A model generated the notes under the pieces. The model was not told the DNA's origin. It was given only the letters and a program-made list of their open reading frames with translations, and did no database searches. DNA of 64,000 nt from Ignavibacteriaceae bacterium (GTDB lineage: Bacteria; Bacteroidota; Ignavibacteria; Ignavibacteriales; Ignavibacteriaceae): assembly GCA_020848375.1 (NCBI GenBank), contig JADLAF010000194.1:1-64000 (forward strand). The letters are read 5' to 3'. Below are positions 3,178 through 14,842 of this stretch, in pieces (position 1 is the first letter of the stretch; every line of letters begins with the position of its first letter). Made by a program: the position numbers and the translations under genes.

Positions 3178-3972
3178 TTGGCTAAAAGTAAATATACTGT
3201 CGAAAAAGAAAACATCCTGAGAAGGATGGTTAAGGACGCCCTTGAGCTTGAGCCGAGCCGGTCTCATTTTTATCTGGCTATTGAAGCAGATATTACTTCT
3301 ATCTACGCTAAACTGCAAAAAAAGAGGAGAGAGGGTAATCCTTACTATGGTATGTCTGCTTTCTTCATGTTCTGCTATATAAAAACCTTGTTAAAATACC
3401 CCGTGGCTAATTCCAGGAGATTAGGGGCTGACCGCATCGTCAAATATCATACTGTGGATATCTTTATGCCGGTCGAAAAGAAGGTTGATGAGGAATTAAT
3501 CCTCTATCCCTCAATGATAAGGAATGCAGATTCATTAAATCTGGAAGATCTCTCCAAAGAATTCTGGAAACTAAGCAATGACCCCGTCATTGAACTTTCG
3601 AAGGTGGAATTGACCTTCCTTAAACTGCCTCGAGTATTTCGGAGAGCGTATTATAAGTGGGCAAAAATCCGTCCCCAGTTATCAAAGGTACTTTTTGGGA
3701 CTTCAGCTTTCAGTACCATATCTATGTATGGTAACGGGAGTCTCTGGGGCTACGGTCTGCCATTTCATACTGTATCAGTGTATATTGGTAATTCGAAGAA
3801 CAAAGTTGAATTATCAGGTACTGAAGCAGTTAACAAGAAGTATGTTGATATTGTTTTTGCGTTTGACCACCGGACTTTAGATGGGGCTCAGGGTGCAAGG
3901 ATCGTTAATTATTTCCGGGGGCTGATTGAGAGGGAAAATTCTGACATTAGGGATTATCTTAAAAATCTCTAA
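3178..3972 (+). CDS. Stand-alone 2-oxoacid dehydrogenase E2 acyltransferase catalytic domain-like protein (no lipoyl domain)
   Basis: C-terminal FAFDHRTLDGAQGARIVNYFRGLIE matches the E2 HxxxDG active-site region; FSTISMYGNGSLWG resembles the preceding E2 core. In-frame TAG at 3163-3165 supports the TTG start. Confidence 0.7.
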   Translation: MAKSKYTVEKENILRRMVKDALELEPSRSHFYLAIEADITSIYAKLQKKRREGNPYYGMSAFFMFCYIKTLLKYPVANSRRLGADRIVKYHTVDIFMPVEKKVDEELILYPSMIRNADSLNLEDLSKEFWKLSNDPVIELSKVELTFLKLPRVFRRAYYKWAKIRPQLSKVLFGTSAFSTISMYGNGSLWGYGLPFHTVSVYIGNSKNKVELSGTEAVNKKYVDIVFAFDHRTLDGAQGARIVNYFRGLIERENSDIRDYLKNL

Positions 3973-4973: not shown

Positions 4974-4982
4974 GAAATTAAG

Positions 4983-5009
4983 ACCCTCGTGAAGCGAGGG
5001 TTTTTTTTT
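4983..5009 (+). terminator. Rho-independent terminator
   Basis: CCCTCG-TGAAG-CGAGGG stem-loop followed by a T9 run. Confidence 0.9.
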
Positions 5010-5037: not shown

Positions 5038-8007
5038 ATGTTCAGGTTATCAGGAGTTGTTCTTCTCCTCTTTTTACTAACTGGTTCTGTCTTTCCATCA
5101 GGATCAGCATTTCAGGAGGCAATTCTTTTTTATAATAAGGGGTTGTTCGGTCAGACATCCCGGATACTGAAAGACTATATACAAAGTCTGGCCAAAGATC
5201 ATCCTGACAGGGAAACTTCTCTTTACTTTCTTGCAAAATCGAACTACTACCTCGGAATTCACACTTTAGCTGCTGATTACTTCGAACAGTTTAACAGGGA
5301 GTATCCACTTTCGCCCCTTAAAGAACAAGTATATAACAAACTTGGTCTTCATTATTTTGAAACGGGCCTATTCCCTGAATCCAGAGATAATTATTTTTCA
5401 TTAATTAAAGAGTTCCCCGAAAGTGAATTTACTGGTTCAGCTCAATACTGGATAGGGGAGTCTTTTGTTCATGAGGGCAAATTCAGCGAGGCAATCAGTT
5501 ATCTTGAAAATGCCATAAGCAGCAGAAGCGGTAATAAATATCTGGATTATGCTATTTATTCACTTGCCGGAGTTTATGAAAGGAAAGGGGACTATAAATC
5601 GGCAGCTACCTATTACGATGAATTAATTTCTTTTTACCGAAGCAGTCCACTTCTTGCAGCCGCCCAGATTCGTATTGGTTTTTGCTACTTCAAGCTAAAA
5701 GACTATGATGCTTCTATTTTAGAGTTGTCAAATCCGAATATCGGAACAATGACCGCAGAAAAGCAGGCAGAAGCGCTTTACCTTCTTGCCAATGCAATGT
5801 ATCACACTTCCGACTATGAGGGGGCTTATAAAATTTATGCTGATATACAAAATAAATTCCCCTCAATATCTTTTATCCGTGATCTCCGTTATGCATTTGC
5901 ATGGACAAACTTCAGGTTGAATAAATATTCTGATGCATATAAATTTTTTAATTCGGTTTCAGAAACTGAAGATAGTATGGGCATTGAAGCATTCTTCTGG
6001 AAAGGGGAGGCAAAACGGTATTCCGGTCAGCTTGATGAAGCGTTAAAGATTTACGAGCAGTTTCTCTTAAAGTTTCCTGGATCAGAAAAAGTGCAGGGCG
6101 TAAGATATCAGCTTGGGCTGATTTCATATTCAGATAAAAAGTACGAACAAGCTGTTAAATTTCTCATCGGATCAGTAACTGGTAAAGATAAAATTATAAC
6201 ACTCAAATCATATATTCTTCTTGGTGAAATAGAGCTTTACCGGAAAAAATATCAGCTTGCCGATAATTATTTTAATTCGGTTCTCAGCATGAGTCCGGAT
6301 GATGCCTCGCTATTTTACCGTGCACGGTTGGGTAAAGCTATCTCCTCATTCCATCAGGAAAAATTTAAAGATGTTTCTGAAATTCTGAAAAAAATAGAAG
6401 AGGAGAACCCAAACTTCGAGTTTGAAAAAGTGAGTTTCTTTCTTGCTGAAGCTCTTTTTAATCTGAAACAGTATAAAGAGTCCTTAACCTACTATAATAA
6501 AATCAGTACGGACGACAAACAGTTTGGTGCTTATGCACTCTACGGCAAGGCATATACTTACTACAACCAGTCTGACTATAAAAATGCAACTTTTTATTTT
6601 TCCGATTTCCTGAAACTGTTCAAGAATGATGAAAGAGCAGATGATGCTTCATTGCGTCTTGGGGATAGTTTTTTTGCTGTTAGGGATTATGATGCGGCGG
6701 TACGGATTTATAAGGATATACTGGTCAGGAAAAGTAAAGGAGTACGAACAGATTATGTAAATTATCAGCTCGCCCTGGCATATTATAAGGCAGGAAAAAT
6801 TAAGGAATCTCTGGCGGAACTTAATTCTGTCTCAGCGCTTTATTCAAAAAGTGAGTATGGTGAAAATGCGCTTTATCTGGCCGGGTGGATTCATTTTCAG
6901 CAAGCCAACTATAGTGCAGCAATAGATAAATATCTGCTCATGCTCAATACTATGCCCAGATCACGTTTGATTCCCATGATACTGTACTCGATCGGTGACT
7001 CATACTTTAATCTTGGCAGCTATGATTCCTCCATTGCCTATTATAACAGAATAGTTACATCTTATTCGGGAAGCAATTATTTGTTTGATGCTATTAGCGG
7101 TATTCAGTATTGTTATATAGCAAAAGGCGATCTGGAAGGTGCGACTTTAATTATTGACCGCTATGCCCGCCAGTATCGGTCAAGTGCATTCGCGGATGAG
7201 CTGTTTCTAAAAAAGGGAGAAATTTATTACTCAAACGGGGACTATGAAAAAGCGATTGTTTACTATAATGAATTTATAGATTTGTTCCCTGAATCAGAAC
7301 TTACCGCGGATGCTTTTTTCTGGATTGCTAAAAGCTATCGCACAACCGGTAAAGTCCTGGAGGCCAAGCAGACCTTCCGTGCACTTGCTGAAAGATTCCC
7401 GGCTGCTGAAATAACTGTTTCCGCCGTTATTGAACTTGCTTCACTCTATCAGGCGGACAACAATCATGGAGAAGCACTTAAGGTAATTAACTCTGTATTG
7501 GTGAATTTCAGTAAAAGCACAAGGTATCCGGAACTGCTTTACACCAAGGGCAAAATACTTCTTGTAATGAATGATGTAGGCGGTGCTTATGATTTATTTG
7601 ATCAGACTTCAGTTTATTACGTTGATAACTTGTTTGGCGATAAGTCAAAAATTGAATTAGGCAAACTTGAACTGAACAATAAACGTTACAAGAAGGCCGC
7701 TGAAGTTCTTCTGAAAGTTGCCACTAAGAGAAGTGATGATTTGGCTGCTGAAGCACAGTATATTCTCGGACTTGTTTACACGGCAGAAGGAAAAAACAGC
7801 GAGGCAATCACCTCATTTGTAAGGGTGACCAATATCTTTTCATTGTACGATGAATGGGTTACCAAAAGTTTTTTGCGGCTTGGAGAACTCTATGCGAAGT
7901 CCGGTGATAAAAACAAAGCCAAAGAAATGTATAAAAGTGTTTTAGCAAAACACCCTGATGATGAATATGGCAAGGAAGCACAATTAAAGCTGAGGAGATT
8001 GAAATGA
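5038..8007 (+). CDS. Large exported TPR protein (989 aa), first gene of TPR/barrel/HU-SPOR/ExbBD/TonB operon
   Basis: Signal peptide, then many TPR-like units (YKEALxYY, AxYxLGxxYF, YxxAIxYYNxxI); start/stop overlap with next gene. Confidence 0.85.
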   Translation: MFRLSGVVLLLFLLTGSVFPSGSAFQEAILFYNKGLFGQTSRILKDYIQSLAKDHPDRETSLYFLAKSNYYLGIHTLAADYFEQFNREYPLSPLKEQVYNKLGLHYFETGLFPESRDNYFSLIKEFPESEFTGSAQYWIGESFVHEGKFSEAISYLENAISSRSGNKYLDYAIYSLAGVYERKGDYKSAATYYDELISFYRSSPLLAAAQIRIGFCYFKLKDYDASILELSNPNIGTMTAEKQAEALYLLANAMYHTSDYEGAYKIYADIQNKFPSISFIRDLRYAFAWTNFRLNKYSDAYKFFNSVSETEDSMGIEAFFWKGEAKRYSGQLDEALKIYEQFLLKFPGSEKVQGVRYQLGLISYSDKKYEQAVKFLIGSVTGKDKIITLKSYILLGEIELYRKKYQLADNYFNSVLSMSPDDASLFYRARLGKAISSFHQEKFKDVSEILKKIEEENPNFEFEKVSFFLAEALFNLKQYKESLTYYNKISTDDKQFGAYALYGKAYTYYNQSDYKNATFYFSDFLKLFKNDERADDASLRLGDSFFAVRDYDAAVRIYKDILVRKSKGVRTDYVNYQLALAYYKAGKIKESLAELNSVSALYSKSEYGENALYLAGWIHFQQANYSAAIDKYLLMLNTMPRSRLIPMILYSIGDSYFNLGSYDSSIAYYNRIVTSYSGSNYLFDAISGIQYCYIAKGDLEGATLIIDRYARQYRSSAFADELFLKKGEIYYSNGDYEKAIVYYNEFIDLFPESELTADAFFWIAKSYRTTGKVLEAKQTFRALAERFPAAEITVSAVIELASLYQADNNHGEALKVINSVLVNFSKSTRYPELLYTKGKILLVMNDVGGAYDLFDQTSVYYVDNLFGDKSKIELGKLELNNKRYKKAAEVLLKVATKRSDDLAAEAQYILGLVYTAEGKNSEAITSFVRVTNIFSLYDEWVTKSFLRLGELYAKSGDKNKAKEMYKSVLAKHPDDEYGKEAQLKLRRLK

Positions 8008-9593
8008 AACTGAATATAAAAATGCTTGTGTTCCTTCTTGTTTTATCTACAGTGACATTTGCGCAGGACGACACTAAGTCTAATGTTGAACTGCCTGATT
8101 TTGTTATTACCGGTAAGGACCAGATTAATTTCCCGCCGGCAAAAAAAATTAAACCGGATGTGATATCGGCACTTTCAGAAGAATTTATAAATCCTCCTTA
8201 TAAAGCTGAAGAGTTTTCTTCAGGTGAAATAAGCATACCAGAAACAATTGTTTCGTTTAAGAAAGACTCTTCTCTGGTTTTTAATGGGTTGTTCTCAGTT
8301 TATCTGGGTAACCTCTCCCTCCCCGAGCTTAAAGGTAGTTATAATCTGGGTTTTGGTTCATTGCGGCTTACTCCGTCTCTTGAGGTGAAAAAAATCCGCG
8401 ATTTTGAACCGAACAGCGGAGAAAGTATATATAACTTTAATGTTAGTTCAGTTTTTACGCAGGAAAGAGGCGAGGGGTTTTTTAGTGACATAATTGCAGA
8501 CGCGGATGTTTCTTTCTATTCAAGTAACAGGAAACTTTACAAAGACACATTATCGTTCAGGAAAAGGGACTTAAATCTGTTTTCAATGAATGCCGGTATT
8601 AAAAAATATTTTAGCAGTAATTCCACAGTGCATCTTACCGGTGATATTAAATCTGCATCAGTAAATGAGTTTGTCTCTGGGTTGAACAGGGCTTCTTTTG
8701 ACGCGGGTGGTTTCGTTAAATTTTCAAATTTTATACTCTCCGCTGATGCTGAAATCTCCACTATGTCATTAGACAATTATGACAAGGGCTATTATTCTTT
8801 CACCCCAGGTGTTTCATATTTTCAGCCCGGCTCACTTTACATAAGAGTAGCTGGCGGACCCGTAAAGGCAGGCGAAAATAGCGGTATTGGGATTGATGCC
8901 TCAGCCGGATTGAATCTTTCTTCCGCACTAAGTGTCAGTTTCAGCTATGAAAATGGCTGGAAGAGCTCAAATTTGTTTAGTTCACTTGTTTCTGTCCCAT
9001 ATTTCCTGCCTGATTCATTAAGTCAATTGTTCGAAAACCGGAATCATCACCTCAGGTTTGAAACAAAATACAGTTTTAAACACTATTTTGAGGGGTTAGT
9101 TTTCATTAAAACCGGTAAAACAGAGAACATGAACTATTTCTTGAGAGATACTTCTAACGGGGTTTTCAGAGCTTCATCGGCAGATGCCTCATTTGTAGGT
9201 ATGGGGGTTGATCTTAAGTTCCATGAGGGTCCCATGGGTTTTTTATATGGTCATGCTGAACTTAATTCTGTTAAGGATAATAATGACAAAACACTTCCTT
9301 ATCTGTCTTCTCTTCGGGGCAATTTGATCTATGGTAAAAAGCTGAGCAAGTCAATTAGTCTGCTGGCTGGTGCTGAGTATCTTAGTTCTCCTTATGTTGA
9401 CCGGCAGAATCTGAAAGAAAGCAGTTCTTACTTAGACATTAATTTAGCGTTAGAATATAAACTCGGCCTTATTTCAGAGGGAAGTGTGGTTTCATTTAAA
9501 GCGAATAATCTGTTAAATACCGAAAACAACTACTGGGAGGGATACCCTGGCAGACCGGCCGACTTTCGTATTGGTTTGGAAATAAAGTTTTAA
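8004..9593 (+). CDS. TonB-dependent-receptor-like outer-membrane beta-barrel lacking a recognisable plug
   Basis: Signal peptide; TonB-box-like VELPDFVITGKDQ near mature N-terminus; alternating barrel strands; TBDR-like C-terminus NLLNTENNYWEGYPGRPADFRIGLEIKF. Confidence 0.7.
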   Translation: MKLNIKMLVFLLVLSTVTFAQDDTKSNVELPDFVITGKDQINFPPAKKIKPDVISALSEEFINPPYKAEEFSSGEISIPETIVSFKKDSSLVFNGLFSVYLGNLSLPELKGSYNLGFGSLRLTPSLEVKKIRDFEPNSGESIYNFNVSSVFTQERGEGFFSDIIADADVSFYSSNRKLYKDTLSFRKRDLNLFSMNAGIKKYFSSNSTVHLTGDIKSASVNEFVSGLNRASFDAGGFVKFSNFILSADAEISTMSLDNYDKGYYSFTPGVSYFQPGSLYIRVAGGPVKAGENSGIGIDASAGLNLSSALSVSFSYENGWKSSNLFSSLVSVPYFLPDSLSQLFENRNHHLRFETKYSFKHYFEGLVFIKTGKTENMNYFLRDTSNGVFRASSADASFVGMGVDLKFHEGPMGFLYGHAELNSVKDNNDKTLPYLSSLRGNLIYGKKLSKSISLLAGAEYLSSPYVDRQNLKESSSYLDINLALEYKLGLISEGSVVSFKANNLLNTENNYWEGYPGRPADFRIGLEIKF

Positions 9594-9603
9594 CATCAGT
9601 ACG

Positions 9604-11460
9604 ATGACTAAATCTGAATTAATCAGGAATATAGCTCTAAAAACAGGTATCCCTGTCTATCAGGCAGTGGATTTTATGGAGATATTTCTTGAATATATAC
9701 GAGAACATGTTGAAGGGGGTAAATCTTTTATCATAGGTGCAATTGGTGAATTCAGACCTGTGCATGTTAATATATCCGGGAAGTTAAATATAAGCAACTA
9801 TGTTGAAGCTATACTTTTTGAGGGGAAAGAACCTTTTACCTCATCCCGGCACTTGTTTGATCTCCCCTCAGCCGAAGCAGCGGTTGATATAAAAGCCGAC
9901 AATCTGCTTAATCTGAGTTTTGATAAGCCAATTATGCCGGCTGACTCTTCTGGCGATACCGAGGCATTTCTTCTCCTCAATGGCAGTCAAAGCAGAGAAT
10001 TGCTTGTTAAGAAAGCTGCAGAATTATTCGGTACAGGAAGTATTTTTGATATCAACACCATCGAATCCTACCTGTCGGTAGCTGACCTGAAAGAGATTAT
10101 AAATAAGGGTGACTCAGAAAGTGATATCCGGAATGCAATTGAAAAGACAGATTCTGAGTCCTGGGAAACTTCTGAAGCATTGGATTGGGAGTTTGGCGGT
10201 GAATGGAAAAAGGAAGTTGAAAGTGAAGATATTTTGCTGGATGCAAATCTTTCCGAATGGAATTTTGGCGGGGAAGAATCACAAACAGTTGAAGAAAGTG
10301 AAATTAGTTTTGATGATTTAACCCGTACTAACCTGGATGTCCTTCAACACGAAAAGGACTACGTCCCGGTGTCTTCCCGCACCAGAGAGCTTCAGATAGA
10401 TCTATCTGAATTAGAGGATGAAGAATCATCCAACCATAAAGAAATTTTTCTTCCACCTGATCCAACCTCCTTTACTCCTCAGAATGATCTGGATTCACTC
10501 TTCAAAAAATCAATTGCTGAGAGTTTTCTTTTTGCAATACCGGATCCCATTGAGAAAAAAGAAGAAGAAAGAAGAGAGGAGAGGAGAAAAGCCAGAGAAG
10601 CTGAGGAAAAGGCATATCTTGAAAATGAGTATAGTTTAAGAAAGCGACTGGAAGCTGAAGGAGAGGGGAATGATGAGACCGGTCAACTTGCCGATGTAAT
10701 CAATTTAAAGCCGAAGCATCATAAAGAAGATGATTATTCAGGGTTTGATCCAAAATCGCTCATAAAAACTCAGCTTCCTAAACTTGCCAAACAGAAGAAA
10801 CCGATCATCTGGACACTGCTCTCACTTCTGTTTGTCGCGGGGGTAGGTTCCACCTTATATATTCATCGGTTTGGAGTTCCCGATTTTGTGGCAAAATATC
10901 TGCCTGAAAAAAAAGGATTTGAACTGCCTCCCATAGTTGCTACTGTTGTTGAAAGAGATTACAATATCCCGGTTACATATCCTTACCGGAAAGCTGCAAA
11001 TCCTTCTGATATTCCAATGCTTGGGATTGACAGCAGTGATTTTGCGCCTATGCCCCAGCCCTCAGTCACGAGCATCAAAAATGATTCTACTGTAATTATT
11101 AAGAAAGACTCGAACCAGGTTGTAACGCCGGTTACCAAACCTGTTGTTACCGATCAAAAACCTCCTGAATCAAGGGAACAGAAGCAACCAGTAATCAGTC
11201 AAAACCCTGTGCAGCCGTCTTCAGAATCTGTATTGGTAAAAGGGAATATATTCCGTGAAGGAGATATTTACACGGTTCAGGTCTCAAGCTGGCGAGAAAA
11301 GACTGTTGCAGAGAAGGAATCAGCCCGTTTACAGCGTCTTGGGTATCCGGCCTATGTTCAGTCAGCGGTAATACCAGGCAGGGGCCGATGGTACAGAGTC
11401 AGGGTCGGAGAGTTTAAGACACTTCAGGAAGCTGAAGAATATTCTAATAAATTAAAGTAA
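9604..11460 (+). CDS. HU/IHF-like N-terminal domain, acidic linker, single TM and C-terminal SPOR domain fusion
   Basis: N-term MTKSELIRNIALKTGIPVYQAVDFMEIFLEYI..GGKSFIIGAIGEF is HU-like; TM PIIWTLLSLLFVAGVGSTLYI; C-term YTVQVSSWREKTVAEKESARLQRLGYPAYVQ..RWYRVRVGEFKTLQEAEEY is SPOR. Confidence 0.85.
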   Translation: MTKSELIRNIALKTGIPVYQAVDFMEIFLEYIREHVEGGKSFIIGAIGEFRPVHVNISGKLNISNYVEAILFEGKEPFTSSRHLFDLPSAEAAVDIKADNLLNLSFDKPIMPADSSGDTEAFLLLNGSQSRELLVKKAAELFGTGSIFDINTIESYLSVADLKEIINKGDSESDIRNAIEKTDSESWETSEALDWEFGGEWKKEVESEDILLDANLSEWNFGGEESQTVEESEISFDDLTRTNLDVLQHEKDYVPVSSRTRELQIDLSELEDEESSNHKEIFLPPDPTSFTPQNDLDSLFKKSIAESFLFAIPDPIEKKEEERREERRKAREAEEKAYLENEYSLRKRLEAEGEGNDETGQLADVINLKPKHHKEDDYSGFDPKSLIKTQLPKLAKQKKPIIWTLLSLLFVAGVGSTLYIHRFGVPDFVAKYLPEKKGFELPPIVATVVERDYNIPVTYPYRKAANPSDIPMLGIDSSDFAPMPQPSVTSIKNDSTVIIKKDSNQVVTPVTKPVVTDQKPPESREQKQPVISQNPVQPSSESVLVKGNIFREGDIYTVQVSSWREKTVAEKESARLQRLGYPAYVQSAVIPGRGRWYRVRVGEFKTLQEAEEYSNKLK

Positions 11461-11473
11461 AAAAGGAAAAAGA

Positions 11474-12136
11474 ATGAGTTTACTCGAGATGTTCTTTCAG
11501 GGCGGGTTCATTATGTGGCCTATTCTTATCGCATCTGTAGTAGGTGTGGCCATTTCTATTGACCGTTATCTTGTAATCCGCAAAGCACGACTGAATGCTC
11601 CTAAATTTTTGGCTGCAATCCGCTCTATGGTAAAAAAGAAAGATATTGACGGTGCAATACAGTTCTGTATGGCAGAAAAAACACCTGCTTCAAATATGAT
11701 CAGAAAGGGACTTCGTAAAGTACGCTTTGGCCACAGCCGGGTTAAGGAAGCTATTGAGGCAGCCGGAAAACAGGAAGTTACAAAACTTGAAAAAGGTCTT
11801 AGCGTACTTGCCACAATATCAGGCATCGCCCCGCTCATGGGTTTCCTGGGTACCGTGACAGGTATGATTGGTGCATTTATGAAGATTCAGGATTTACAGG
11901 GGTCTGCAAGTCCGAGTGATCTTGCTTCGGGTATTTGGGAGGCACTCTTAACTACAGCGTTTGGCCTGGGCGTAGGTATTATCGCGCTGATTTTTTATAA
12001 CTACTTCCTTGCAAAAATCACCAAATTAGTAAATGATATGGAAGTAATTTCAACTGATGTTCTCGACAGTCTGGAAGAAGCACTCACGGGTAAAGAACTT
12101 CCTCCTGATCAGGACGAGCTTGAAATGGAATTATAA
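11474..12136 (+). CDS. MotA/TolQ/ExbB proton channel family protein
   Basis: LSVLATISGIAPLMGFLGTVTGMIGAFMKIQ...GIWEALLTTAFGLGVGIIALIFYNYF is the canonical ExbB/TolQ core. Confidence 0.95.
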   Translation: MSLLEMFFQGGFIMWPILIASVVGVAISIDRYLVIRKARLNAPKFLAAIRSMVKKKDIDGAIQFCMAEKTPASNMIRKGLRKVRFGHSRVKEAIEAAGKQEVTKLEKGLSVLATISGIAPLMGFLGTVTGMIGAFMKIQDLQGSASPSDLASGIWEALLTTAFGLGVGIIALIFYNYFLAKITKLVNDMEVISTDVLDSLEEALTGKELPPDQDELEMEL

Positions 12137-12138
12137 TT

Positions 12139-12546
12139 ATGAAGTTCAGCACCGAAAATAAACCGCTGTCATCATTTAATTTTTCGTCATTGACGGATAT
12201 TGTGATGCTTCTGCTGATCTTTTTCCTGCTTTCCTCTCAGTTTGTTATGCAAACAGGAGTAAAAGTTAAGCTGCCTGGTTCAAAAAGCAATGAGCCGCTT
12301 ACTACATCTAATCTTTCAGTTACTATTACTAATGAGGGAACCGTATATATCGGGACTGAGGTAACCGCACTGAGTGAACTACCGATGAAATTCTCCATCA
12401 TGAAACAGGCAGACAAGGATAATAACCTTATTATAAGAGCTGACAAAACAGTTCCGATTGAAATGGTAATCAAAGTTATTGATGCCGCACGTTCAGCGGG
12501 AATAGATAAATTCATAATCGAAACTGAAAAAGACCGGCTGAATTGA
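12139..12546 (+). CDS. ExbD/TolR family biopolymer transport protein
   Basis: SSLTDIVMLLLIFFLLSSQFVMQTGVKVKLPGS plus DKTVPIEMVIKVIDAARSAGIDKFIIETE. Confidence 0.93.
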   Translation: MKFSTENKPLSSFNFSSLTDIVMLLLIFFLLSSQFVMQTGVKVKLPGSKSNEPLTTSNLSVTITNEGTVYIGTEVTALSELPMKFSIMKQADKDNNLIIRADKTVPIEMVIKVIDAARSAGIDKFIIETEKDRLN

Positions 12547-12549
12547 TTA

Positions 12550-13200
12550 ATGGCAACCCGTGCTGAAGAGCGCCAGCGCTCAGTCACTATTTCACTTTTT
12601 TTCCATTTTCTGCTGTTTCTCTTTCTTTTTTTTTACAGAATAGAACCGCAGACTGAAATTCAGGAGTTCATCGAAATCGGATTCGGAGGTGATGGTGCTT
12701 CCATGCTTAGCGGTGTTCCAGACAAGTTGAACGATAATCCTGAAGATGTTAAGCAAAATACTGAGTTAGAAAAAAACGATGATGTAAATCTGCCTAAAGC
12801 CGGTGAGAGCCCTGAAGACCCTTCGGTTAAAAAGGAAACTGAAAAGAAACCGGAAGAAAATAAAAACACTAATAACAGTCAGAATACGAACACTCAGACC
12901 TCCGGCAGCGGATCAACAGGATATGATATAGACTGGGGTGGAATGGGTCAGAGAAAGATATATAGTTTTATTCTGCCTGCCTATCCTGAGGGAGTTAACA
13001 AAAATATTGATATAAGAATACGCTTTACCATTTTACCTGATGGAACTGTCGGGAGTGTATTGCTTTTAGTAAAAGCTGATACCCGGCTTGAAAACGCCGC
13101 AATTACCTCACTGCGGCAATGGAGATTTGAACCTCTGCCTGCTAAACAAAATCAGGTGGTTCAGAATGCGGTTATTACTTTCCCGTATCGGGTACAGTAG
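12550..13200 (+). CDS. TonB/TolA-type energy transducer with C-terminal TonB domain
   Basis: N-terminal TM, polar linker, then IRFTILPDGTVGSVLLLVKADTRLENAAITSLRQWRFEPLP. Confidence 0.88.
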   Translation: MATRAEERQRSVTISLFFHFLLFLFLFFYRIEPQTEIQEFIEIGFGGDGASMLSGVPDKLNDNPEDVKQNTELEKNDDVNLPKAGESPEDPSVKKETEKKPEENKNTNNSQNTNTQTSGSGSTGYDIDWGGMGQRKIYSFILPAYPEGVNKNIDIRIRFTILPDGTVGSVLLLVKADTRLENAAITSLRQWRFEPLPAKQNQVVQNAVITFPYRVQ

Positions 13201-13480
13201 CTTTTTTGAAGTACTCAGGATAATACATCCGGTAAAAAAAGTATTCTGCGATGCACAGAAGAGTTAATGTAATTGCATCCCTGTCATAATATAACCCGAA
13301 TCCTTCCGGATTAATCAGATACTTAGTCGGAATTCCGGCAATTGACCATCCCACAGTAAACAATATCGCAATAAGACCAGCATTAAGGAAGGCAGTTGCA
13401 AGATTTTCTTCCTGCCATTTCTTTGTGAAAATAATAAGGATAAAAAGCAGATGCAGGAAAAATATAAATGCTGTGATCAT
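13175..13480 (-). CDS. Hypothetical small membrane protein
   Basis: 101-aa hydrophobic ORF, coupled to upstream 13477..13986; 3' end overlaps the convergent TonB gene by 26 bp. Confidence 0.65.
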   Translation of the reverse strand: MITAFIFFLHLLFILIIFTKKWQEENLATAFLNAGLIAILFTVGWSIAGIPTKYLINPEGFGLYYDRDAITLTLLCIAEYFFYRMYYPEYFKKATVPDTGK

Positions 13481-13986
13481 TGGTTCTGTGAATCCCTTTT
13501 GAACATAAACGCAAAAAACAGACTGCCCGGGAGGCAGAACAGGGCATTGCTGAGTGAATTGCTTACAAAATAAATGAATGTATAAATTCCTGAAAAACCA
13601 TCATTTTTAATATCTTCCATAAGACTGTTGAGCAACGCAGCAGACTGATCAGCTTCAGGCAGCCCAAGCCCCCTTATTATTTTCATTGCCTCCGGCATCA
13701 TCGCGACAAAGTTATTTGTCTTGAAGATCATAGTTACCACAACTTCAATTATGGTCATAAAAAATGCTGTAAAAATTCCTGCTGCTATTCCGGTTTTTAT
13801 AGCTGACAAAAAAGGACGTTCACCCTTCTCAGGATGGAGGCGGAATTCAAACTTTGAGGCAAAGAATCCGGCTGCGGGTACCAGAATAATGAAAAATATC
13901 TGCATGAGTGAAACACTCAGCAGAGCTGCAAGCCCGAACCCGACAACCATAGCCGGTGATAAAATTCTCTGTAAGTTATTGTTCAT
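13477..13986 (-). CDS. DUF4199-like membrane protein
   Basis: Four hydrophobic segments with DUF4199-like layout (AGIFTAFFMTIIEVVVTMIF); family assignment tentative. Confidence 0.6.
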   Translation of the reverse strand: MNNNLQRILSPAMVVGFGLAALLSVSLMQIFFIILVPAAGFFASKFEFRLHPEKGERPFLSAIKTGIAAGIFTAFFMTIIEVVVTMIFKTNNFVAMMPEAMKIIRGLGLPEADQSAALLNSLMEDIKNDGFSGIYTFIYFVSNSLSNALFCLPGSLFFAFMFKRDSQNQ

Positions 13987-14842
13987 TAAGTAATGTATCA
14001 GTGTTAATAATGTTTAAATTTCTGCCTGTTATATAAATCAGCCGGTTATTGATCAGAAAAGGGGATTGAATTGTATCTCCATCATGACCGGGGATTTGAA
14101 AGACAAGGGGAGACAAAAACGGTTTTGCGACATTCCGAAGAATTACGGTATTCTTTTTTGTTAATATCAGATACTCGCCGGCAAATCCTGCCAAAAACTC
14201 AGTCTTCTCAAGTTCAAAAAAACTGATGTAATTTAAAAACCGGTCAAAAAGAAAAAGACCTGCTGAATCCTGCACGGCAATATGATCTTTGTCAGAAAAA
14301 ATCTTAACAGGATAATTGAGTTTCCTCTCCGGGAGATTTTCAATGAAATAAACATTGCCCCTTTCTTTGAAGTACTGATCAGCCGTCAATATGATATGGC
14401 TCAGCCGGTCTGCGATAAATATTTCGCCAAACGAATTGACTGTAAATGAAACGGGGTCTGCAACCCCAGCCGAGGTGAAAATATGCTCCAATTTTTGCTC
14501 CCCTCTGAAATTAAGAAGCCGGTCAAAAAGTTTCACCGACTTAGCCCCTCTGTCAAGAATGTACAGGTTCATACCCCGCCAGAAAATACATGCAGGGTCA
14601 ATAAGTGCAGAGGTACCAAATCCGCCGCCGCCTGTTCTTTTTAATTCATTGCCATCAGGGTCGGTTACTACTATTTCCAGAGTACTTTTGTCAATAAGGT
14701 AAAAATTACCACTCTGATCCTGGGTTATGCCCAACGGCTGAAAACCGAGGCGGACCTGACTTTCAATACGGATCTGCTGACCTGTCAGAATACAGGTGAG
14801 AAGAATAAAGATTAATGCGTTAAATACTCTAAAAAACTTCAA
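13976..14842 (-). CDS. Exported 6-bladed beta-propeller/NHL-like protein
   Basis: Signal peptide; repeated GITQDQSGNFYLIDKSTLEIVVTDPDGNELKRTGG and FTVNSFGEIFIADRLSHIILTADQ blades. Confidence 0.7.
   Translation of the reverse strand: MKFFRVFNALIFILLTCILTGQQIRIESQVRLGFQPLGITQDQSGNFYLIDKSTLEIVVTDPDGNELKRTGGGGFGTSALIDPACIFWRGMNLYILDRGAKSVKLFDRLLNFRGEQKLEHIFTSAGVADPVSFTVNSFGEIFIADRLSHIILTADQYFKERGNVYFIENLPERKLNYPVKIFSDKDHIAVQDSAGLFLFDRFLNYISFFELEKTEFLAGFAGEYLILTKKNTVILRNVAKPFLSPLVFQIPGHDGDTIQSPFLINNRLIYITGRNLNIINTDTLLNEQ

Follow-up and report, generated by a model that had tools for sequence, protein, structure and literature searches.

The window, i.e. the whole 64,000-nucleotide stretch of DNA analysed here, contains at positions 5038-13200 six open reading frames (ORFs), all on the + strand, whose junctions measure -4, 10, 13, 2 and 3 bp in the ORF list of the window. 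The six tightly packed co-directional genes described in the initial annotation are thus borne out with their coordinates, and the strong terminator it had placed upstream, at 4983-5009, was recovered as a hairpin at 4980-5004; with its 11-pair stem and T run (4980-5009, + strand), this terminator-like structure, assigned as the intrinsic terminator of a TPR gene lying just before, forms the left border of the operon. From ORF list and domain search, the first gene encodes a giant TPR protein (989 aa; 5038-8007), the third a protein with an HU-like domain, a single transmembrane (TM) helix and a SPOR domain (618 aa; 9604-11460), the fourth the ExbB/TolQ proton-channel subunit (220 aa; 11474-12136; MotA_ExbB, 2.2e-34), the fifth the ExbD/TolR subunit (135 aa; 12139-12546; ExbD, 8.2e-28) and the sixth a TonB/TolA-like force transducer (216 aa; 12550-13200; TonB_C, 2.7e-7). 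The second (529 aa; 8004-9593) is assigned from ORF, predicted model and fold match to a plug-less, 22-strand barrel of the TonB-dependent-transporter (TBDT) type. The domain content originally proposed (TPR, HU-like and SPOR, ExbB, ExbD and TonB_C) agrees with the Pfam searches, and the operon indeed carries no Pal or TolB gene, with no OmpA domain among the six genes.

Elsewhere in the window, the protein encoded at 49-1194 has a C-terminal NYPNPFNP...KKMILL stretch resembling, by inspection, type IX secretion sorting tails, and a 2-oxoacid dehydrogenase acyltransferase match at 3178-3972 covers the catalytic domain only, with no lipoyl domain detected. On the 3' side of the operon, three convergent genes of 101, 169 and 288 aa occupy the minus strand at 13175-14842; in most of the Ignavibacteria relatives, too, a set of three convergent genes of similar sizes lies behind the operon.

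By inspection, the giant TPR protein has a signal peptide and no visible lipobox. Its length of about 990 aa is maintained across the 34 relatives aligned, with 30-43% identity within Ignavibacteria. It scores 271 bits against the tol_pal_ybgF model (cut-off 90), a score that is not specific for a CpoB-type protein: a second giant TPR protein of the same genome reaches 210 bits.

The barrel protein matches no Pfam family in the domain search of the window. Its AlphaFold2 model, built from 34 sequences (mean pLDDT 81), predicts a 22-strand barrel starting at residue 95, preceded by a disordered segment (residues 19-91) and containing no plug; in the barrel part proper (residues 95-528; 8286-9587, + strand) most 10-residue blocks have a pLDDT of 80-96, the lowest being 71. 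In a comparison with the PDB, all of the best 50 matches listed are TBDTs (BtuB, E 2.5e-16). Furthermore, the domain search found no match to the plug family in 27 barrel members from across the phylum, five of which match PF00593, the TBDT barrel family. The model and the fold matches uphold the earlier reading of a plug-less TonB-type barrel, and the protein is, as modelled, a TBDT fold minus its plug.

The best-conserved 9-mer of the barrel protein is found outside the predicted barrel, right behind the signal peptide, where the peptide ELPDFVITG (residues 29-37; 8088-8114, + strand) shows a conservation of 0.948 against a mean of 0.433, a value reached in none of 5000 column shuffles. The peptide resembles the TonB boxes of plugged TBDTs encoded in the window genome and in two relatives (TDEVVVTG, IEEVIVTA and TDQVVVTA), and its motif drifts in distant members of the phylum (IEIVKERE, VVNIVKAYTP). 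A TonB-box position-specific scoring matrix is, on its own, insufficient proof of a TonB box, since the score of the barrel peptide is equalled in the N-terminus of 34 of 451 control ORFs. So high a conservation, within a tail that evolves fast and is otherwise disordered, would be difficult to account for if nothing bound the peptide, and the C-terminal domain of the operon TonB is likely to contact it. There is precedent for a peptide-transducer contact of this kind on the Tol side, where the N-terminus of TolB binds TolA the way a TonB box binds TonB (PMC7391070).

With ExbB, ExbD, TonB and a barrel of TBDT fold encoded side by side, an ordinary TonB-dependent nutrient uptake system might come to mind. 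It is, however, a most improbable reading of a barrel that lacks the plug, in a genome that encodes plugged TBDTs elsewhere (24 plug matches), and of an operon in which SPOR and TPR genes, instead of substrate-binding or ABC genes, are linked to the barrel. The predicted 22-strand barrel without a plug would, on the other hand, be a wide pore, and could be used for export, either as an open channel or as a platform for assembly; proteins, lipids or polysaccharides would be the cargo, TonB would gate or power the pore, and the TPR protein would act as a periplasmic chaperone or bridge. Giant TPR proteins often serve secretion, which agrees with such a role. A further precedent is Oar, a TBDT reported to be needed for secretion of the protease PopC in Myxococcus (PMC6434023). 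Nevertheless, among the loci compared the operon has no conserved gene for a peptidase, another enzyme or a substrate of secretion, and the SPOR and HU parts would not be expected in an exporter; export appears unlikely.

ExbB/ExbD and TolQ/TolR motors drive TonB and TolA, respectively, and the operon encodes a motor pair of this type as adjacent ExbB/TolQ and ExbD/TolR homologues. The preference of its ExbB for the tolQ model was discarded as evidence, since tolQ is also the best match of both further ExbB proteins encoded in the genome; here the models do not tell Tol from Ton motors. The transducer combines the S-x3-H motif and the C-terminal domain that are features of TolA-type transducers: S15 and H19 in its TM helix (12592-12606, + strand), the motor-coupling motif of TonB/TolA, are present in 90% or more of the 34 relatives aligned, and its highly conserved C-terminal domain (12937-13197, + strand) matches solved TonB C-terminal domains (5.5e-6). 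It is the weakest of five TonB_C matches in the genome (2.0e-7 versus 4.6e-21 for the best), and scores 36 bits with tolA_full and 29 bits with tonB_Cterm, models that do not separate TolA from TonB.

SPOR domains bind denuded septal glycan. In the third protein of the operon the SPOR domain (residues 555-618; 11266-11457, + strand; Pfam 1.3e-12) lies at the C-terminus, and an HU/IHF-like domain with a short arm loop (9604-9867, + strand) at the N-terminus, where Bac_DNA_binding matches residues 1-55 (Pfam 1.7e-5); PF18175 is marginal (E 0.06). The model of the HU domain has an H-H-E-E-E arrangement, with HU/IHF as the nearest, albeit modest, solved folds (best E 3.9e-3). The TM helix, placed at residues ~401-417 by inspection of the sequence (10804-10854, + strand), is Lys-rich on its N side, which suggests that the HU domain is inside and the SPOR domain in the periplasm. 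The SPOR domain is the constant part, being present in 33/33 Ignavibacteria proteins and in 24 of 26 third-gene proteins of the wider phylum; HU is detected by Pfam in 23/33 of the former, and no HU-type model matches more than 10 of the latter. In one relative (L068, G056) the SPOR part is 274 aa long and is preceded by a separate ORF of 402 aa, apparently the split-off HU half. The coupling to the nucleoid put forward in the initial annotation does find an HU-like domain in the window protein, but it is weak because many relatives lack that domain, and may be regarded, at best, as an accessory idea.

Conservation of the gene order in related genomes, which had been suggested as a check, was found. 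The barrel search gave a match in 55 of 59 genomes of the Ignavibacteria family and order, and the order TPR-barrel-HU/SPOR-ExbB-ExbD-TonB is kept in the window and 33 relatives, except that ExbB and ExbD, and no other genes of the six, are absent from six relatives and ExbD from another (L054, G043). A scan of named genomes with the Ignavibacteria TPR alignment as query, separate from the first set of relatives though with some contigs common to both, returned Ignavibacteriaceae, Melioribacteraceae and other Ignavibacteria; all six genes stand in the same order in 49 of 57 complete loci, and the remaining eight are without exactly ExbB and ExbD, leaving 11-42 bp between SPOR and TonB genes. 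With the order conserved in tens of genomes, a chance grouping of the genes is excluded. On an approximate FastTree tree of 75 TPR proteins, presence or absence of ExbB and ExbD changed at least seven times, even with the starred branches alone, a count that does not separate gain from loss. The relatives without the pair have other ExbB genes elsewhere in the genome and their operon TonB retains S-x3-H; the motor is, therefore, exchangeable, while the transducer and the outer-membrane side are the constant part of the system. In L054, where the operon is otherwise intact, ExbD is gone, ExbB has diverged or decayed and the S-x3-H of TonB is lost too, an apparent decay of the motor link.

The near universality of the barrel in the Ignavibacteria family and order, small genomes included, also speaks against a gliding or adhesion machine like Agl-Glt of Myxococcus, in which a TolQR motor, TonB-like and TPR proteins and outer-membrane barrels make up a similar parts list. 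That the AgmX/PglI tail domain is matched by 10/34 TonB members, and that the TPR protein has weak GltE/GltC matches, fits such a machine, but the latter are far below cut-off and TPR models are promiscuous; we consider this explanation very unlikely.

Across the Bacteroidota, 161 of 218 genomes contain a match to a barrel profile, mostly a single one, in frames of about 530-650 aa, the weakest matches possibly including ordinary transporters. Aligned with each other, the barrel profiles of the Ignavibacteria and of the phylum correspond from end to end, over 515 columns, with a probability of 100; the phylum-wide TPR alignment is without conserved stretches. In 40 phylum loci picked by barrel match, the barrel has a giant TPR gene as its neighbour in 32, the gene for the SPOR protein comes next in 26 and ExbB in 15, and all six genes in order are present in seven (counts that include a few larger gaps). 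In many distant loci, only the TPR and barrel genes stay together and the motor is not always linked. Since both barrel and neighbours occur phylum-wide, the proposal that the operon is lineage-specific was wrong; its outer-membrane core extends through the Bacteroidota, mostly in bacteria without standard Tol-Pal.

A search for tolB and pal elsewhere had also been advised, and no canonical tolQRAB-pal locus was detected in the window genome or in near-complete relatives: TolB_N was not found in the former (88.75% complete), and none of ten near-complete relatives has a TolB over the TIGR02800 cut-off. Four OmpA-domain proteins are encoded on other contigs of the window genome. TolB_N scores in 12 of 218 phylum genomes, mostly of one genus, with two marginal matches in Ignavibacteria, and the notion that TolB and barrel mutually exclude each other across the phylum was dropped, the distribution being confounded by relatedness. 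According to Williams-Jones et al., tol-pal loci are not identifiable in Bacteroidetes, and PorE has been proposed as the outer membrane-peptidoglycan tether standing in for CpoB-TolB-Pal (PMC12204202). A PorE-like protein with TPR, PD40, CarboxypepD and OmpA domains is encoded on a short contig of the window genome (C67; L061:2578-4334), near the PorE/CHU_0125 models and below their cut-offs. Given this protein, the operon is not necessarily alone as a candidate for replacing Tol-Pal, and is to be seen as a second, motor-linked one beside it. It is conceivable that the Tol-Pal task falls to PorE-like proteins and that the operon encodes a different envelope machine with a housekeeping role, e.g. 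for positioning outer-membrane proteins or lipoproteins; however, the PorE-like protein sits on a 4.3-kb contig and has no lipobox by inspection, and we regard such a division of labour as quite unlikely.

Our main reading, to which we give a probability of roughly 0.5, is that the operon encodes a force machine of Ton/Tol type that spans the envelope and is driven by the proton motive force, whose target would be the plug-less TBDT barrel with its TonB-box-like strand, and which would play a Tol-Pal-like role. The architecture is near certain, and the chances that its role is Tol-Pal-like are about even. ExbB and ExbD, or another cellular motor where they have been lost, would energize the TonB-like protein by means of the proton motive force; its C-terminal domain would pair with ELPDFVITG and pull on the barrel and, there being no plug to open, the force would be loaded onto the barrel and, with it, the outer membrane. 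In the periplasm, the giant TPR protein may dock the barrel and/or the transducer. The TM-SPOR protein would link the whole to peptidoglycan, the septum being the probable site; in those members that have an HU domain, it would face the cytoplasm. The net effect would be tethering and constriction of the outer membrane, as with Tol-Pal. The idea of a Tol-Pal substitute advanced in the initial annotation is, then, retained in so far as a Tol/Ton-like machine powered by the proton motive force, with its own barrel and SPOR protein, occurs in conserved order where no tolQRAB-pal is detected, but without the lineage-specificity, with a weak nucleoid coupling and with a PorE-like protein encoded as well. 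More tentatively, and with some doubt on our part, it might represent a third general Ton/Tol-type machine of Bacteroidota, whose motor pulls by way of the TonB box on the plug-less barrel, an outer-membrane handle in this case and not an importer, and which replaces Tol-Pal in most of the phylum.

The individual proteins are surely already annotated in many genomes; no description or experimental study of the locus was found in a literature search that covered mostly open-access papers. The means by which most Bacteroidota, having no Tol-Pal, tether and constrict their outer membrane are an open question (PMC12204202), to which the locus offers a concrete and near-universal candidate answer, with a peptide of nine residues on a barrel without plug, and the TonB that would be its partner, at the centre. 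If this is true, TonB boxes would serve mechanical anchoring besides the import of nutrients, and the barrel would offer a surface target throughout the phylum.

Among known systems, the vWA force-transducer loci (PMC12204202) also combine a TPR gene, TolQ-like and TolR-like genes and a transducer of TonB topology, but differ in the transducer domain, in having two TolR-like genes and in lacking a TBDT-type barrel. A second giant-TPR operon of the window genome (C13:10000-28000, L058) resembles them, with ExbB, two ExbD genes, a TM protein in which S-x3-H is fused to DUF4159 (PF13709, 8.6e-29) as transducer, and a PorP/SprF-like gene nearby. The PorE/CHU_0125-like fusions, likewise proposed to tether outer membrane and peptidoglycan in place of CpoB-TolB-Pal in Bacteroidetes (PMC12204202), are encoded at a separate locus (C67), and have OmpA-type peptidoglycan binding and a propeller, and no barrel. 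The third gene of the operon is, phylum-wide, the positional equivalent of HU-CCDC81/SPOR (PF18174/PF18175), matched by several members (10/26), whereas the window protein matches Bac_DNA_binding and many members are without HU altogether. With the Ton system the operon has in common ExbB/ExbD/TonB, the 22-strand barrel fold and the TonB-box-like peptide; it is unlike it in having no plug or import partner genes, a dedicated SPOR protein and giant TPR protein, and a divergent TonB. Unlike Tol-Pal, it has neither TolB nor a Pal lipoprotein, its target is an integral barrel, its peptidoglycan binder an inner-membrane SPOR protein, and its TPR protein 989 aa long versus 263 for the CpoB model; with Tol-Pal, it shares a TolQ/R-type motor, an S-x3-H transducer with a TonB/TolA-type C-terminal domain, a TPR partner, a peptidoglycan-binding partner and, presumably, an outer-membrane target contacted through an N-terminal strand.
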